Assembly (NCBI GenBank): GCA_003666325.1
Contig: QPIL01000122.1
Coordinates: 1-64,000, forward strand
Source: Methylococcales symbiont of Iophon sp. n. MRB-2018
Lineage (GTDB): Bacteria > Pseudomonadota > Gammaproteobacteria > Methylococcales > Methylomonadaceae
Direction: 5' to 3'
DNA length: 64,000 nt
Positions 4,990-10,620 of this stretch are shown piece after piece; position 1 is the stretch's first letter, and every line of letters begins with the position of its first letter. The position numbers were made by a program, and so were the translations under genes. The notes beneath the pieces are model-generated. The model saw only the letters and a program-made list of their open reading frames with translations, was not told the origin of the DNA and searched no databases.

Positions 4990-5895
4990 TTATCTATTAC
5001 CTTGAATACCACCAGTATGTATGGTTAATATTTTTTGTCCTGCTTTAAAATAATCTTTTTGAATTAAATCAAACAAGCCATAAAACATTTTTGCGGTGTA
5101 AACTGGCTCTAGTACAATGTTATGACAAGTTTTAAAGTCATTGATAAATAATAATAGTTCATTATTACATTTTGCAAAGCCACCGAAATGATAATCTAGC
5201 TGAATTAGCCAATGGATTTTATTTAAAGGATTGTTTTTTAGTAATTGTTCAACGTCTTTTGATAAAAAATCGGCACCTTTTAATGCAGAGAAACCCATAA
5301 CTTTTGTGTTTTCTGAGCACGATGCAATAATTCCAGCTAAAGTTGTTCCGCTGCCACAAGGTACACAAATAACGTCAAACTCTGTTTCCAGTTCAGTAAC
5401 AATATCTGCCACACCTTTTAATGCCAACGCTGTTGCCCCACCCTCTGGCAACCAATATTCACCGCTTTTATTACCCGGCAAAGCATCCTCTGCTTTCAAT
5501 TGTCGTAATGCTCTGTATGCCTCGCGAGAGACGTAACGTAAGTCCATACCCCATTTTTGCAAATCTAAGAGAGTTGGATTTTTCTGTTTGCCTTCTTCTC
5601 CTCGGATGATAGCTCTTGAATTTAAACCCAGTTGCTTACAGGTATAGGCTAAGGCATGTAAATGATTTGAGTAGGCACCGCCCATACTGATTATGGTATG
5701 GCTGCTCGACTTTAAAGCATGATCTAGACAATATTTTAATTTACGCCACTTATTTCCAGAAATAATTGGATGAATTAAATCATCTCGTTTAATCCAGCAT
5801 TCTATCTTTTTTTGTTCTAATAAAGGGCTAAATATTTGGCTCAGTGTGGATGCTTGAAAGCTACTTTCTAAGTCAGTCAGTTTGGCATGTAGCAT
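4990..5895 (-). CDS. PLP-dependent 1-aminocyclopropane-1-carboxylate deaminase / D-cysteine desulfhydrase family protein
   Basis: A 301-residue fold-type II PLP enzyme. The expected PLP lysine is in 'SGNKWRKLKY' (near residue 49), preceded by 'IKRDDLIHP'. The phosphate-binding loop is 'CGSGTTLAGI', and 'GGAYSNH' is the substrate loop typical of this family. Members either deaminate ACC or release sulfide from D-cysteine; sequence reading cannot choose. Its start overlaps the 3' end of folP by 23 bp, so it is probably cotranscribed with it. Confidence 0.85.
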   Translation of the reverse strand: MLHAKLTDLESSFQASTLSQIFSPLLEQKKIECWIKRDDLIHPIISGNKWRKLKYCLDHALKSSSHTIISMGGAYSNHLHALAYTCKQLGLNSRAIIRGEEGKQKNPTLLDLQKWGMDLRYVSREAYRALRQLKAEDALPGNKSGEYWLPEGGATALALKGVADIVTELETEFDVICVPCGSGTTLAGIIASCSENTKVMGFSALKGADFLSKDVEQLLKNNPLNKIHWLIQLDYHFGGFAKCNNELLLFINDFKTCHNIVLEPVYTAKMFYGLFDLIQKDYFKAGQKILTIHTGGIQGNR

Positions 5896-6706
5896 ATTTT
5901 ATAGCCCATGCTACATCCGCAGCTTGTCTGTTTTCTTTAACATCATGCACTCTAAACATTTGTACGCCGCCCATAACCCCTAATGCAGTAGTAGCAGCAG
6001 TTGCAGCAACGAGTTCGGCAGGCTCTGACACATCACAAAGACTGCCCATAAATCGTTTACGACTGGTGCCTAATAGAACGGGGAATCCCATTTCTACTAA
6101 TGGCTCTAAATGCGCCAATAAATTCAGATTGTCTTCTCTCCGTTTACCAAAACCAATGCCGGGGTCTATTATAATATTTTCTTTTTTAACCCCACTGTGC
6201 AATGCCTCTGCAATGCTATCGTTTAAACTATCCATGACCTCATTAACCACATTTTTATAATAAGGCTTATCTTGCATGGTTTTGGGGGTACCTTGCATGT
6301 GCATCAAAATAATAGCTACATTTTTTTCAGCGGCTATGCTAAAAATATGATGATCTTGCTGCCCTGCTGAAATGTCATTAATGATATTAGCACCTGCATT
6401 AATCGCTGCCTTAGCCACTTCACTTGAAGTCGTGTCAATGCTAATTAAAACCGTTTCTGACAGCTCACTTCTAAGCGCTAAAATAATAGGTACAACCCGT
6501 GAAATTTGACTATCAATACTGACTGGAGTTGAACCTGGGCGAGATGACTCACCACCAATATCAATAATATCTGCACCTTCTGAAAGCATTTTTTCAGTTT
6601 GCTGGAGAGCACACGCTACATTCATATATTGTCCGCCATCAGAGAAACTATCTGGGGTCACATTTAAAATCCCCATAATGATGGGTTTATTAATATTTTT
6701 GAACAC
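5873..6706 (-). CDS. folP: Dihydropteroate synthase
   Basis: A 277-residue TIM-barrel enzyme condensing 4-aminobenzoate with dihydropterin diphosphate. Signature 1 is 'MGILNVTPDSFSDGG' (residues 11-25), signature 2 is 'GADIIDIGGESSRPGS' (44-59), and later come 'NDIS' and the phosphate-binding 'GTSRKRF'. These all fit folate-type DHPS. It diverges from the pterin/C1 cofactor block that begins 75 bp away, so it may serve folate, the methanopterin-like cofactor, or both. Confidence 0.95.
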   Translation of the reverse strand: MFKNINKPIIMGILNVTPDSFSDGGQYMNVACALQQTEKMLSEGADIIDIGGESSRPGSTPVSIDSQISRVVPIILALRSELSETVLISIDTTSSEVAKAAINAGANIINDISAGQQDHHIFSIAAEKNVAIILMHMQGTPKTMQDKPYYKNVVNEVMDSLNDSIAEALHSGVKKENIIIDPGIGFGKRREDNLNLLAHLEPLVEMGFPVLLGTSRKRFMGSLCDVSEPAELVAATAATTALGVMGGVQMFRVHDVKENRQAADVAWAIKYATCQTD

Positions 6707-6780
6707 AATAGAGTCCTCTATATTATTTCTAAAAAAAGTTTCAGGTATAATGCCCCTTCTGATTAATTCTTAAATCAACA

Positions 6781-7317
6781 ATGAATCGAGCTAAAATTGC
6801 TTGGGCTATCACCGGTTCTGGTCATTATATAGAAGAATGCCTTGAATTCCTGCTCACTCTGAAAAATGTTGATGTCTATTTAAGCCAGGCAGGAGAAGAA
6901 GTGCTAAAAATGTATGGTGTTGATTTAAAAAATGTTCATGCTATACATTCTGTTTATAGAGATAAGGCTGCATCTGCACCCCCTGTGGGTCATTTTTATA
7001 AGGGTTATTATCATACCTTTGTGATGGCACCCACCACCTCCAATACCATTGCCAAATGTGTTTTAGGTATTGCTGATTCATTAGTCACTAATTTATATTC
7101 CCAAGCAGGGAAATGTCAGATACCTAGTATTATTTACCCCTGTGATATTGCACCTGCAATGGAAACCACGGCACCTAGTGGTAAAGTCATGGTTTACCCC
7201 CGAAAAGTTGACCTAGAGGCAACCGATAAAATCAAAACTTTTGAATATACCGAAGTGGTAGAAAGTGTCGATGAGCTTATAGTCAGCGTTAAACAACGGA
7301 TTAAATCACTGGCATGA
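6781..7317 (+). CDS. Flavoprotein (AfpA / dihydromethanopterin reductase-like)
   Basis: A 178-residue protein of the flavoprotein (PPC decarboxylase/UbiX-like) fold. The N-terminus 'IAWAITGSGHYIEECL' has the FMN-binding start, and 'APTTSNTIAKCVLGIADSLV' is the conserved second loop. Relatives include archaeal flavoproteins and dihydromethanopterin reductase (acceptor). It opens a four-gene run with 4-bp ATGA overlaps. The neighbours are methanopterin-type, so reduction of the pterin cofactor is the best inference; the exact reaction is not shown by the sequence. Confidence 0.8.
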   Translation: MNRAKIAWAITGSGHYIEECLEFLLTLKNVDVYLSQAGEEVLKMYGVDLKNVHAIHSVYRDKAASAPPVGHFYKGYYHTFVMAPTTSNTIAKCVLGIADSLVTNLYSQAGKCQIPSIIYPCDIAPAMETTAPSGKVMVYPRKVDLEATDKIKTFEYTEVVESVDELIVSVKQRIKSLA

Positions 7318-8717
7318 GTTCAAATAAGCCTGAGCATTTATTGTTTTTGACCGGCAAGCTGGCAGAAAAGCAATTAACATTGATTTTACAACAGATGGAA
7401 ACTGATTTTACCTACAATATTCATCAGCTTGGGGTTAAAGTAGCCGCTTTAATCACTACTGAAATGATCAGTCGACGCTTAAAAAACACCTTCAATGCCG
7501 ATAAAATAATTATTCCAGGACGTTGTCTTGGCGATATAATCGCTTTGTCTCAAACCTTCGGTATACCAGTAGAACGTGGCCCAGAGGAGCTGAAAGATTT
7601 ACCTTTGTTTTTTGGCAAAGCCGCACATAAAATTGATTTATCCCGCTACAAGATTAAAGTTTTTGCAGAAATTGTCGACGCACCCAATTTAACCGTTGAC
7701 CAAGTTATCAAACGTGCATTTTATTACCAGCAAAATGGTGCCGATGTCATTGATATTGGTTGCCTGTCAGAAACGCCTTTCCCACAAATGGAAGACATTA
7801 TCCGCACTCTAAAACAAGAATCTTTTACCGTCAGTATTGATTCTTTAGAGGATGATGATTTACTCAGAGGGGGGCAAGCGGGGGCAGATTACATACTAAG
7901 CTTGAGCAACAAAAGCCTCTGGATTGCCGATGAGGTAAATAGCACCCCCATTTTAATCCCAGAAATACATGGCGATTTATCATCCTTAGATTATGCTATC
8001 TCAAGGTTACAAGGTAAAAACAAACCTTTTATTGTTGACCCTATTTTAGACCCGATACATTTTGGCTTTACCGAATCTATTGTGCGTAATTATAACTTTA
8101 GACAGCAATATCCCAATGTGGAAATGATGTTGGGTGTAGGCAATATTACCGAACTAACCCACGCTGATACCTCAGGTATGAACACCCTATTATTAGGTAT
8201 CTGCTCTGAGTTAAATATTAACCATATTCTGACAACAGAAGTCAGTCAACATGCCTGTCGCGCTATTAAGGAAGCCGACCAAGCCCGGCGTATTATGTAT
8301 GCTGCACAGCAACGCAGTGCTTTACCTAAACATATTGATGCTAAGCTAATGACAGTTCATGACCTTGCACCTTTTCCCTATCAATTAGATGAAATCAATG
8401 AATTTGCGGCACAAATACGAGACCCCAGCTTTCGTATTCAAACCAGCCCAGAGGGGATTCATATTTATAATCGTGATGGCTTACATACTGCCACCGACCC
8501 TTTCGATCTTTTTCCAAAATTACAAGTAGATACCGATGCCAGTCACGCTTTCTATTTAGGTGTAGAATTAGCTCGTGCCGAAATTTCCTGGCAACTAGGC
8601 AAACGCTTTAATCAGGATCGGGCCTTAAATTGGGGCTGCGCTTCCAATACAACGGAACAAACTACAGATTTGCATAGCTTTAAACCAGCAGCAACCACTT
8701 TACAAAAAAACAAATGA
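7314..8717 (+). CDS. DUF6513 and pterin-binding (dihydropteroate synthase-like) protein
   Basis: A 467-residue two-part protein. Residues 1 to about 125 match the N-terminal domain found in methylotroph and archaeal H4MPT-linked proteins ('LLFLTGKLAEKQLTLILQQM'). Residues about 125-290 form a pterin-binding TIM-barrel segment ('GADVIDIGCLSETPFPQMED', 'FIVDPILDPIHFG'). A C-terminal extension follows ('FRIQTSPEGIHIYNRDG'). It overlaps both neighbours by 4 bp. The domain pair suggests handling of a pterin intermediate in methanopterin assembly; no enzymatic activity is proved by the sequence. Confidence 0.82.
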   Translation: MSSNKPEHLLFLTGKLAEKQLTLILQQMETDFTYNIHQLGVKVAALITTEMISRRLKNTFNADKIIIPGRCLGDIIALSQTFGIPVERGPEELKDLPLFFGKAAHKIDLSRYKIKVFAEIVDAPNLTVDQVIKRAFYYQQNGADVIDIGCLSETPFPQMEDIIRTLKQESFTVSIDSLEDDDLLRGGQAGADYILSLSNKSLWIADEVNSTPILIPEIHGDLSSLDYAISRLQGKNKPFIVDPILDPIHFGFTESIVRNYNFRQQYPNVEMMLGVGNITELTHADTSGMNTLLLGICSELNINHILTTEVSQHACRAIKEADQARRIMYAAQQRSALPKHIDAKLMTVHDLAPFPYQLDEINEFAAQIRDPSFRIQTSPEGIHIYNRDGLHTATDPFDLFPKLQVDTDASHAFYLGVELARAEISWQLGKRFNQDRALNWGCASNTTEQTTDLHSFKPAATTLQKNK

Positions 8718-9280
8718 TACAAGAAGTTATTGTCAGCACTCAAAATGCACAAGGTAAATCACACCTAGCTCCTATGGGGATTCATGTGCAGGCGGATGAA
8801 ATTATCATCCTGCCGTTTCGTCCCTCCAACAGTTTAAACAATATATTAGAATTAAAATCAGCCGTGATTAATTATTGTGATGATGTCCGTATTTTTGCTG
8901 GTTGTTTAAATGGAAAGCACGATTGGCCATTAACAAAAACAGACAAAATAGAGGGGCATTACCTCTCCACAGCACTGGCTCATAAAGAGCTTGAACTGAT
9001 TAAAATTGAAGATGACCCCACAAGACCTAAACTTTTTTTTAAAATAGTTCACAGTCAAAATCATGCGCCTTTTCGGGGTTTCAATCGCGCTCAATATTCG
9101 GTGCTGGAAGCGGCAATTTTAGTCAGTCGTTTACATATTCTACCCCTAGAAAAAATAGAATCTGAAATTGAATATCTAAAGATTGGTCTGGACAAAACCG
9201 CAGGTGATAACGAACGTGAAGCATGGGGCTGGTTAATCGCATTAGTGGATCAACACAAACAAAAGCAGTTGCAAACATGA
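8714..9280 (+). CDS. DUF447 family protein
   Basis: A 188-residue protein starting 'MIQEVIVSTQNAQGKSHLAP' then 'MGIHVQADEIIILPFRPS', the flavin-reductase-like split-barrel start of DUF447. This family is shared by methanogens and H4MPT-using bacteria. The C-terminal 'GFNRAQYSVLEAAILVSRLH' is conserved-looking. It overlaps the genes on both sides (ATGA), so the four proteins are probably made together. Its biochemical role is not established. Confidence 0.82.
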   Translation: MIQEVIVSTQNAQGKSHLAPMGIHVQADEIIILPFRPSNSLNNILELKSAVINYCDDVRIFAGCLNGKHDWPLTKTDKIEGHYLSTALAHKELELIKIEDDPTRPKLFFKIVHSQNHAPFRGFNRAQYSVLEAAILVSRLHILPLEKIESEIEYLKIGLDKTAGDNEREAWGWLIALVDQHKQKQLQT

Positions 9281-9948
9281 GTAAAATGCTCGCCAGTATT
9301 AACAGTCTTGAAGAGGCTCAATTCATACTCACCACTTCTGTTGATATTATTGATCTCAAGCAACCTAAGCTCGGTGCGTTAGGAGCGCTGCCTAGTGACA
9401 CCATTAAGAATATTGTAAAGCTGGTTGACCATAAAAAACCAATCAGTGCAACGATAGGCGATTTACCTATGAATGCTGATTTAATCTTTGATGCGGTAAC
9501 TGCCATGTCGAAAACACAGGTCGATTATATCAAGATAGGTTTTTTCCCTGGTGGGGATTGGCAGCAAACGCTTTCCAGACTCAATCAATTGACACAACAG
9601 AGGCAGCAATTAATTGCTGTACTATTCGCCGATAATGATCCTGATTTCAAAATTATTCCGTCATTAAAAGAAAACAGTTTTACAGGTGTTATGCTAGATA
9701 CTATGGATAAAACATCTGGGACTTTATCGCAGTTAATGTCTTTTAATGAATTAACTCTCTTTGTAAAATCTGCAAATGAAGCTGAATTATTCTGTGGCTT
9801 GGCAGGCTCACTTAAAACTGAAGATATTCCTGAGCTGTTAAAATTAAATGCTGATTATTTAGGTTTTAGAGGCGCTTTATGTGAGCAACATAATAGAACA
9901 GCACCTCTAAACACTGAATCAACAAATAAAGTCCTTGCTCATTTTTAA
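9277..9948 (+). CDS. (5-formylfuran-3-yl)methyl phosphate synthase-like protein (MfnB/DUF556 family)
   Basis: MfnB makes 4-(hydroxymethyl)-2-furancarboxaldehyde phosphate from glyceraldehyde-3-phosphate, the furan part of methanofuran. The protein has the family pattern 'DIIDLKQPKLGALGALP' with the catalytic lysine region, 'VDYIKIGFF' and 'GVMLDTMDKT'. The start is placed at 9277 because that ATG overlaps the DUF447 stop in the same ATGA arrangement seen in this operon; the longer frame from 9223 adds residues unlike the family. Length 224 residues is normal. Confidence 0.85.
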   Translation: MSKMLASINSLEEAQFILTTSVDIIDLKQPKLGALGALPSDTIKNIVKLVDHKKPISATIGDLPMNADLIFDAVTAMSKTQVDYIKIGFFPGGDWQQTLSRLNQLTQQRQQLIAVLFADNDPDFKIIPSLKENSFTGVMLDTMDKTSGTLSQLMSFNELTLFVKSANEAELFCGLAGSLKTEDIPELLKLNADYLGFRGALCEQHNRTAPLNTESTNKVLAHF

Positions 9949-9969
9949 CCAAACACCTTAAAAATATAG

Positions 9970-10620
9970 ATGGAAATTAGTAAAAACCCGTTAGGTAACC
10001 GATTCAGAGGCTATCTCCCTGTTATTGTTGATATTGAAACGGCAGGGTTTAATGCAAAAAAAAACCCGCTGTTAGAAATTGCCGCTGTTATTGTTGAGCC
10101 TGACCCACAAGGACTGCTACAAACCACAGAAACACATGCTTGTAATATCATCCCCTTTAAAGACTCAGAACTTGATGATGCCGCATTAAAATTTACCAAC
10201 ATTGACCCCTACCATCCTTTTCGCATGTCTATTGAAGAAAAAGAGGCACTGTCAAAAATATTTAAGCCGATCAAAGATGCGGTTAAACGTAATGACTGCT
10301 CACGCGCCATTTTAGTCGGTCACAACCCCGCTTTTGATATGAATTTTTTAAACGCAGCAATTGCAAGAACCAAGATAAAACGTAGTCCATTTCATCCTTT
10401 TAGTAGCTTTGATACAGCCACTCTAGGTGGATTGGTATATGGGCAAACCGTTTTGGCTAAAATTGCCAAAGCAGCTAATTTAGAATGGGATAGTAATAAA
10501 GCGCATTCGGCACTTTATGATGCAGAACAAACAGCCAAGCTGTTTTGTATGATAGTTAATCGTTGGAAAAAGCTGGAAGAGTTAGATAGAGCAGACTCAG
10601 GACTAAAAACTAAAAACTAA
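9970..10620 (+). CDS. rnt: Ribonuclease T
   Basis: A 216-residue DEDDh exonuclease that trims the 3' ends of tRNA and other stable RNAs. Exo motifs are visible: 'VIVDIETAGFNAKKNPLLEI' (Exo I), 'VGHNPAFDMNFLNAA' (Exo II) and 'AHSALYDAEQTAKLF' (Exo III with the catalytic His). 'TAGFNA' is characteristic of RNase T. The last residues (ADSGLKTKN) and the stop codon are encoded by a 7-bp repeat tract, so the natural C-terminus has been extended or replaced by repeat sequence. Confidence 0.93.
   Translation: MEISKNPLGNRFRGYLPVIVDIETAGFNAKKNPLLEIAAVIVEPDPQGLLQTTETHACNIIPFKDSELDDAALKFTNIDPYHPFRMSIEEKEALSKIFKPIKDAVKRNDCSRAILVGHNPAFDMNFLNAAIARTKIKRSPFHPFSSFDTATLGGLVYGQTVLAKIAKAANLEWDSNKAHSALYDAEQTAKLFCMIVNRWKKLEELDRADSGLKTKN

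Follow-up and report, generated by a model that had tools for sequence, protein, structure and literature searches.

In this study we describe a four-gene operon and the folP gene that diverges from it, located in a stretch of 64,000 nucleotides (positions 1 to 64,000 of contig QPIL01000122.1; hereafter the window) from the Methylococcales symbiont of Iophon sp. n. MRB-2018. We relate the operon to two archaeal-type carriers of one-carbon (C1) units, methylofuran and tetrahydromethanopterin (H4MPT), the latter serving in methanogens and many methylotrophs. The genes and the region between them are as follows.

5873-6706, minus strand: folP, dihydropteroate synthase (DHPS) of the folate pathway, with a GTG start (TIGR01496 327.5 bits, cut-off 162.6; PF00809 E 1.3e-85)
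6707-6780: divergent intergenic region, 74 bp between folP and the flavoprotein gene
6781-7317, plus strand: afpA/dmrB flavoprotein, probable dihydromethanopterin reductase (PF02441; phmmer match to 3wis/4mwg)
7314-8717, plus strand: DUF6513 protein (PF20123 127.8 bits, cut-off 23.9)
8714-9280, plus strand: DUF447 protein (PF04289 76.4 bits, PF20766 57.8 bits; cut-offs 24 and 24.8)
9277-9948, plus strand: mfnB, (5-formylfuran-3-yl)methyl phosphate synthase (PF04476 236.7 bits, cut-off 22.4)

The four plus-strand genes (6781-9948) are linked by ATGA overlaps at 7314-7317, 8714-8717 and 9277-9280, and folP is opposite to them in direction. An earlier description of this DNA, made from its letters without database searches (the sequence-only reading), had seen the same divergent arrangement, which is borne out by coordinates and family matches. 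The operon is real, conserved and functionally coherent, and of an already known kind. The raw list of open reading frames places the start of mfnB further upstream, at 9223, than the ATGA start at 9277. Its product stays below the cut-off of NF002576 (276.6 bits, cut-off 297) and is the enzyme of the first furan step of methylofuran. The intergenic region probably holds promoters for both directions; promoter-like matches over 6500-10100 were near the shuffle level (16 vs 11.3 ± 3.3 in shuffles) and no promoter is claimed. On the same strand as folP, a gene for a pyridoxal phosphate-dependent (PALP) enzyme (4990-5895, minus strand) overlaps the folP 3′ end by 23 bp.

The flavoprotein, which the sequence-only reading had left unspecified, is present as stated and can be narrowed to the AfpA/DmrB type: its residues 4-177 match 3wis/4mwg, a "putative dihydromethanopterin reductase (AfpA)" (phmmer, E 6.3e-49) and its sole solved relative at E 0.001. 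Against the archaeal AfpA model TIGR02699 it scores 108.4 bits, below the cut-off of 192.45, and it differs from the archaeal DmrX-type proteins in lacking their C-terminal part, the TIGR02700 match ending at profile position 136 of 234. Judged by sequence, it is of the bacterial AfpA type and outside the archaeal equivalog. Its likeness to the DmrB/AfpA of 3wis/4mwg predicts reductase activity, and its substrate is probably dihydromethanopterin. For Methylorubrum extorquens, it is reported that the C1 growth phenotype of a dmrA knockout is restored by AfpA, and the beta-proteobacterial group was renamed DmrB (PMC6193120).

Conservation in Pseudomonadota and the C1 pathway of the source genome

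For the analysis of co-occurrence, 239 Pseudomonadota genomes and 14 named control genomes were used. An identical set of 11 of the 239 carries DUF6513, DUF447 and Mch. MfnB occurs in the same 11 and in G191; ribofuranosylaminobenzene phosphate (RFAP) synthase is above cut-off in the 11 and in two more, G015 and G174, and G027 gives a weak match. DUF6513 adjoins DUF447 in all 10 other positive genomes, each of which also carries a copy of mfnB within about 2 kb (one a piece at a contig end), so that the company of these genes is not due to chance. The complete four-gene order was detected in one of the 10 (L030) and on plasmids of Candidatus Thiodictyon syntrophicum and Azoarcus sp. KH32C. A search of 72,556 plasmid records gave 39 matches to DUF6513 (E 1e-5) and 37 to DUF447 (E 1e-2). 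An AfpA match (E 0.001) is present in just 6 of the 11 genomes bearing DUF447 and Mch. Of 15 folP loci in relatives, the window's own among them, 9 have a divergently oriented afpA match, in one case in pieces; proximity to folP thus characterises a lineage and is no general rule.

Some observations accompany this survey. In a same-family relative (L128), the afpA match beside folP is broken across more than one frame, by assembly error or decay. On the Thiodictyon plasmid (L040), the four-gene set is flanked by formate dehydrogenase genes on one side and DISARM-type genes on the other, and transposases are close by. The RFAP-synthase-family genes of G015 (L038:9371-10336) and G174 (L039:9364-10341), both of the same class, occur without a match to Mch, DUF6513, DUF447 or MfnB; another C-glycoside product seems possible for them.

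The idea of the sequence-only reading that a pterin and a furan cofactor are assembled jointly gains support from fusions of MfnB with FolB (dihydroneopterin aldolase). These were detected in 5 of the 12 MfnB-bearing genomes, namely G187, G059, G123, G191 and, as a partial copy, G004 (loci in a different order: L024:5604-6752, L029:12751-14580, L031:10782-11936, L032:11870-12568 as a piece, and L037:8629-9738). In G123 (L029) the fusion carries an extra amino acid kinase domain. Among the seven genomes counted as non-fused, three were scanned and are without FolB (the window, L023 and L028) and four were judged by length alone (224-241 residues). The fusion of G191 (L037) stands in a genome without a match to Mch, DUF6513, DUF447 or RFAP synthase.

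The source genome (2.09 Mb, 98.58% complete) encodes the wider pathway. The sequence-only reading had taken the locus for a pterin/furan block of C1 metabolism and looked to mch, mtdB, fae and fhc genes elsewhere in the genome; all four were found, and the protein families together with these H4MPT pathway genes support the block. Outside the operon there are genes for RFAP synthase, mch and fae, for FTR and fhcB, fhcA and fhcC (the set named fhcBADC), and for mtdB, whose product aligns with its Azoarcus counterpart at 50.7% identity (297 of 303 residues covered). With fae, mch, mtdB, fhcBAC/FTR and RFAP synthase all present, the gene content is that of an H4MPT-using methylotroph. A CitG-like gene lies between fae and a RimK-family ligase gene, the latter beside mch, and a TIGR03123 protein, which we take to be MfnF, is also encoded. 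A pmoCAB-like set is present, its PmoA reaching at best 483.7 bits against solved methane monooxygenases vs 262.6 bits against ammonia monooxygenases. On account of pmoCAB, FTR/fhc, RFAP synthase, mch, fae, mtdB and the TIGR03123 protein, the organism is most likely an aerobic methanotroph with the H4MPT/methylofuran route. Its cofactor genes are spread over at least four contigs (C12, C34, C48 and C59), the operon being one of several islands. Contig C59 holds two tandem mtdB-like genes (L158:6-674 and 700-1593), the first partial, as the fetched stretch starts inside it.

Candidate reactions for DUF6513 and DUF447

The non-pterin part of H4MPT takes at least nine steps, and an inventory of 2011 put the number of unknown methanopterin proteins at an estimated seven (PMC3087415). 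We consider it somewhat probable that the operon builds both H4MPT and methylofuran, DUF6513, DUF447 and DmrB acting on the former and MfnB on the latter. RFAP synthase, encoded elsewhere in the genome, would make ribofuranosylaminobenzene phosphate. As the H4MPT counterpart of FolP, DUF6513 would couple this compound with 6-hydroxymethyl-dihydropterin pyrophosphate, and the divergent FolP would join the same pterin to para-aminobenzoate (pABA) for folate. After the coupling, DUF447 with flavin mononucleotide (FMN) would most likely help to reduce the ribofuranosyl ring, giving the deoxyribitol found in H4MPT, a CitG-like protein could add the second ribose, and DmrB/AfpA would come last, converting dihydromethanopterin to H4MPT. 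MfnB would make the furan phosphate with which methylofuran starts.

The DUF6513 protein comprises an N-terminal DUF6513 domain, a DHPS-like barrel at about residues 110-335 and a DUF4346-like C-terminal tail under the Pfam cut-off; it scores 196.6 bits against TIGR00284, under the cut-off of 256.65. Comparison by hhalign, with profiles from 13 of 15 FolP loci and 14 of 15 MetH loci chosen by signature motif (2 and 1 dropped), gave 84.3% and 85.2% for DUF6513 against FolP and 86.8% for the barrel alone, percentages that stand for single pairwise comparisons and not for database searches. The controls for DUF6513 gave 0.1-0.6% (MetH), 0.6-1.8% (MfnB), 1.1% (RFAP synthase), 0.1% (DUF447) and 0.1% (AfpA), and MetH against FolP gave 95.5%. 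Three aspartates (D147, D176 and D242) are invariant in 11 of 11 DUF6513 members and align with the FolP aspartates of strands 2, 3 and 6, positions which presumably line the pterin pocket. In barrel and aspartates the protein is thus like FolP, from which it differs by its extra N- and C-terminal domains and in lacking the loop motifs and any match of the window protein to Pterin_bind (PF00809) or TIGR01496 at E 0.01; two scanned relatives reach PF00809 below cut-off (21.6 and 18.8 bits vs 25.5). These alignments suggest that DUF6513 may work like FolP, though it is not classed as FolP. A MetH-like methyltransferase domain, considered from a GTGN/GGVSN resemblance seen by eye, was rejected on the profile comparison. 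Folded alone, DUF6513 gave an unusable model with a predicted local distance difference test (pLDDT) score of 36, and a scan of viral contigs revealed no DUF6513 relatives.

Several points weigh against coupling as the reaction of DUF6513. When the FolP sequence of the window was used singly in place of a profile, the hhalign probability was just 16.7%. In the search of the family profile against structures, a designed triosephosphate isomerase (TIM) barrel (1.6e-7) outranks both the sulfonamide-type and the true DHPS chains, Sul2 following at 4.6e-6 and Sul3 and DHPS at 0.0056 and weaker; the single protein gave a weak match to Sul3 (E 0.079). The FolP motifs TPDSF, SRK and RVHD, loops which serve pyrophosphate and pABA binding in DHPS, occur in 0 of the 11 family members, and because they are absent the chemistry of DUF6513 may differ from that of DHPS. 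RFAP has no carboxylate and brings a ribose phosphate, so that pABA contacts would be dispensable for an enzyme using it; a loss of pyrophosphate contacts would be harder to explain. In Methanocaldococcus jannaschii the protein with coupling activity is reportedly MJ0301, which has a different fold.

The lost loops, the extra terminal domains and weak matches to a methyltetrahydrofolate methyltransferase model and to an MtrA-type C-terminus would also suit a pterin binder with another job, methyltransferase-like or chaperone, the coupling being left to an unrelated enzyme or to FolP. We hold this to be a serious, if lesser, possibility: the profile match goes to FolP and not to the MetH pterin domain, and Sulfolobus, the sole control of 14 without a PF00809 match, has DUF6513. 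For the pterin-binding barrel that the sequence-only reading had ascribed to DUF6513, what stands is a remote homology to the FolP profile, with no Pterin_bind match and a poor fit to a single FolP. Its question whether there are two DHPS-like steps finds a sensible answer in one protein for each cofactor, FolP acting in folate and DUF6513 probably in H4MPT synthesis, with the missing loop motifs as a point against it.

In the case of DUF447, an AlphaFold2 model with 31 archaeal relatives in the alignment reached a pLDDT of 91.4. Among the solved structures that match it best are the DUF447 proteins 3b5m (Z 24.1), 2nr4 (Z 21.5), 2iml (Z 20.7) and 2ptf (Z 15.9), the last three described as FMN-bound; the remaining fold matches are flavin reductases and other flavin-binding split barrels. 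The FMN-bound proteins, MM1853 of Methanosarcina mazei (2nr4), that of Archaeoglobus fulgidus (2iml) and MTH_863 (2ptf), share family and fold with the DUF447 of the window at about 20% identity. DUF447 has a split-barrel flavin-binding fold, and we propose that it is an FMN-dependent enzyme of the pterin branch. The characterised dihydromethanopterin reductase of M. mazei is, we assume, encoded by the gene next to MM1853. The reduction of the ribofuranosyl ring uses reduced FMN; our literature search found no statement of such a need, which counts against the proposed step.

A mere flavin reductase passing electrons to DmrB/AfpA would fit the fold as well, since many entries of the fold-search lists are split-barrel flavin reductases. 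It would also fit the position, DUF447 adjoining AfpA-type genes in nine archaeal loci and being separated from afpA in the window only by DUF6513. We regard this role as unlikely, because DUF447 is found in 11 of 11 Mch-bearing genomes and AfpA in 6, the other 5 giving no AfpA match at E 0.001. Two archaeal controls, Sulfolobus and Haloferax, in which AfpA content was not searched, likewise carry DUF447.

Pterin or furan branch

The archaeal controls allow the two branches to be told apart. FTR, MfnB and TIGR03123 were found among them in M. jannaschii and Methanosarcina acetivorans only, RFAP synthase and DUF447 in both of these and in Sulfolobus and Haloferax, and the CitG family in the same four archaea plus Escherichia coli. 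Of the controls, M. jannaschii and Sulfolobus carry the DUF6513 domain. TIGR00284 matches seven controls, four of them bacteria and the others M. jannaschii, M. acetivorans and Sulfolobus; three of the seven are above cut-off. Mch is present in M. jannaschii and M. acetivorans and also in Haloferax; Sulfolobus has no match. For Sulfolobales, a folate analogue with traits of tetrahydrofolate and methanopterin (PMC3261824) and sulfopterin (PMC3432047) are described. Since Sulfolobus has both orphan families and Haloferax has DUF447, and neither has FTR, MfnB or TIGR03123, DUF447 and DUF6513 persist without furan markers.

Gene order in archaea points in the same direction. We used the best 80 of 99 archaeal DUF447 loci, all with archaeal titles but one Clostridia and mostly from methanogens; from these we took gene order and the DUF447 alignment, and they do not widen the branch split. 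A CitG-like gene is located directly upstream of DUF447 in 22 of these 80 loci (19 with the bacterial profile, 22 with the archaeal one), that is in 22 of the 23 outside Methanobacteriales, with L045 as the exception. An AfpA-type gene directly follows DUF447 in 9 of the 80, including the order CitG-DUF447-AfpA of Methanosarcinaceae, and both AfpA-type flavoproteins scanned (L048 and L051) are above the cut-off of "dihydromethanopterin reductase (acceptor)". Because of these CitG- and AfpA-type neighbours, and of the CitG-like gene near fae and mch in the source genome, DUF447 keeps company with pterin-branch genes in bacteria as well as in archaea, if not in all lineages. The data suggest that DUF6513 and DUF447 both serve the methanopterin branch and not the methanofuran branch, and since both orphan genes track the former, the neighbouring mfnB is no ground for assigning them to methanofuran.

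On the other side of the balance, Haloferax is described as a folate user (PMC8305020) and has matches to RFAP synthase, DUF447 and the CitG family despite this, so that these families do not prove H4MPT. M. acetivorans is without a DUF6513 domain match, and the branch split rests on four control archaea, two of them without furan markers. The pairing of CitG and DUF447 was seen in 0 of the 57 other loci (Methanobacteriales plus the one Clostridia), of which 52 have at least 900 bp upstream, and with bacterial profiles DUF6513 was matched in 0 of the best 80 archaeal DUF447 loci.

A service of DUF6513 and DUF447 to methylofuran is the reading that mfnB, near them in 10 of 10 other genomes, would suggest, and the island genes orf5, orfY and orf17, formerly of unknown function, are reported to have proved methylofuran genes (PMC8141765). 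It is improbable given Sulfolobus and Haloferax without the furan markers, the DUF447 of Methanosarcinaceae between CitG-like and AfpA-type genes (the latter classed as dihydromethanopterin reductase in the two scanned), and G191, which has MfnB and neither DUF6513 nor DUF447. A chance neighbourhood of ordinary folate genes, which the adjoining folP might recall, is contradicted by co-occurrence and synteny and can practically be dismissed.

For the pterin branch, a more specific proposal can be put forward only tentatively: DUF6513 would perform the coupling, DUF447, as the missing FMN-dependent reductase, would open the ribofuranose of the pterin-ribofuranosylaniline to give deoxyribitol, and the second ribose would be attached by a CitG-like enzyme, probably Orf7. 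The linkage of the second ribose is of the alpha type, which CitG-type chemistry would be expected to produce. If true, the set of DUF447, CitG-like protein and DUF6513, found from methanotrophs to Sulfolobus, would be an unassigned core of methanopterin-type cofactor synthesis. New here, at moderate confidence, are the branch assignment and the candidate reactions for two orphan families, which become concrete, testable candidates of the pterin branch, DUF447 being paired with CitG-like and AfpA-type genes in archaea. From the overall interpretation of the sequence-only reading, the C1-cofactor block and the joint assembly are retained; a furan role of the orphan genes is not favoured, and MptN, which it had grouped with DHPS-like proteins, is named tetrahydromethanopterin glutamate ligase by NCBIfam.

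Two further observations concern the archaeal loci. Several Methanobrevibacter assemblies, recognised by a shared assembly prefix or contig, carry two DUF447 loci (L080/L114, L088/L119, L087/L118, L091/L116 and L101/L115), possibly paralogs with different jobs. The contig titled Clostridia bacterium (L098) has an archaeal-type DUF447 gene and is probably a mislabelled methanogen contig.

Comparison with known methylotroph islands

The operon belongs to the known H4MPT/methylofuran island type of methylotrophs. For Methylosinus trichosporium, the islands mch-orf5-orf7-fae-fae-orf17 and orf19-orf20-afpA-orf21-orf22 are described (PMC3615186), and Orf22, Orf21 and Orf9 are given as homologs of MfnB, MfnE and MfnF (PMC8141765). 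According to the latter source, methylofuran requires orf5, orfY and orf17, and every cluster gene is essential on methanol; a 2005 paper on such islands is cited within this literature (PMC3615186, PMC8141765). Judged by gene company, DUF6513 and DUF447 are probably the remaining orf19 and orf20. The word DUF6513 was not found in the literature searched, and earlier proposals for orf19 and orf20 elsewhere are possible; a pairing of "triphosphoribosyl-dephospho-CoA" with "methanopterin" was likewise not found there.

As far as the islands of Methylosinus and Methylorubrum are described in these sources, they hold afpA, mfnB (Orf22) and two other orfs together, as does the operon of the window. 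The Methylosinus island has orf21 (mfnE), whereas the source operon is without it and shows the order afpA-DUF6513-DUF447-mfnB beside folP. An identical order is presented by the Azoarcus plasmid pAZKH, amid genes for RFAP synthase, mtdB, mch, fae, an amino acid kinase, a hydantoinase-family protein and a HisA/HisF-like protein. There the pathway forms a single cluster, whereas in the source genome the same pathway is distributed over the four or more contigs named above.

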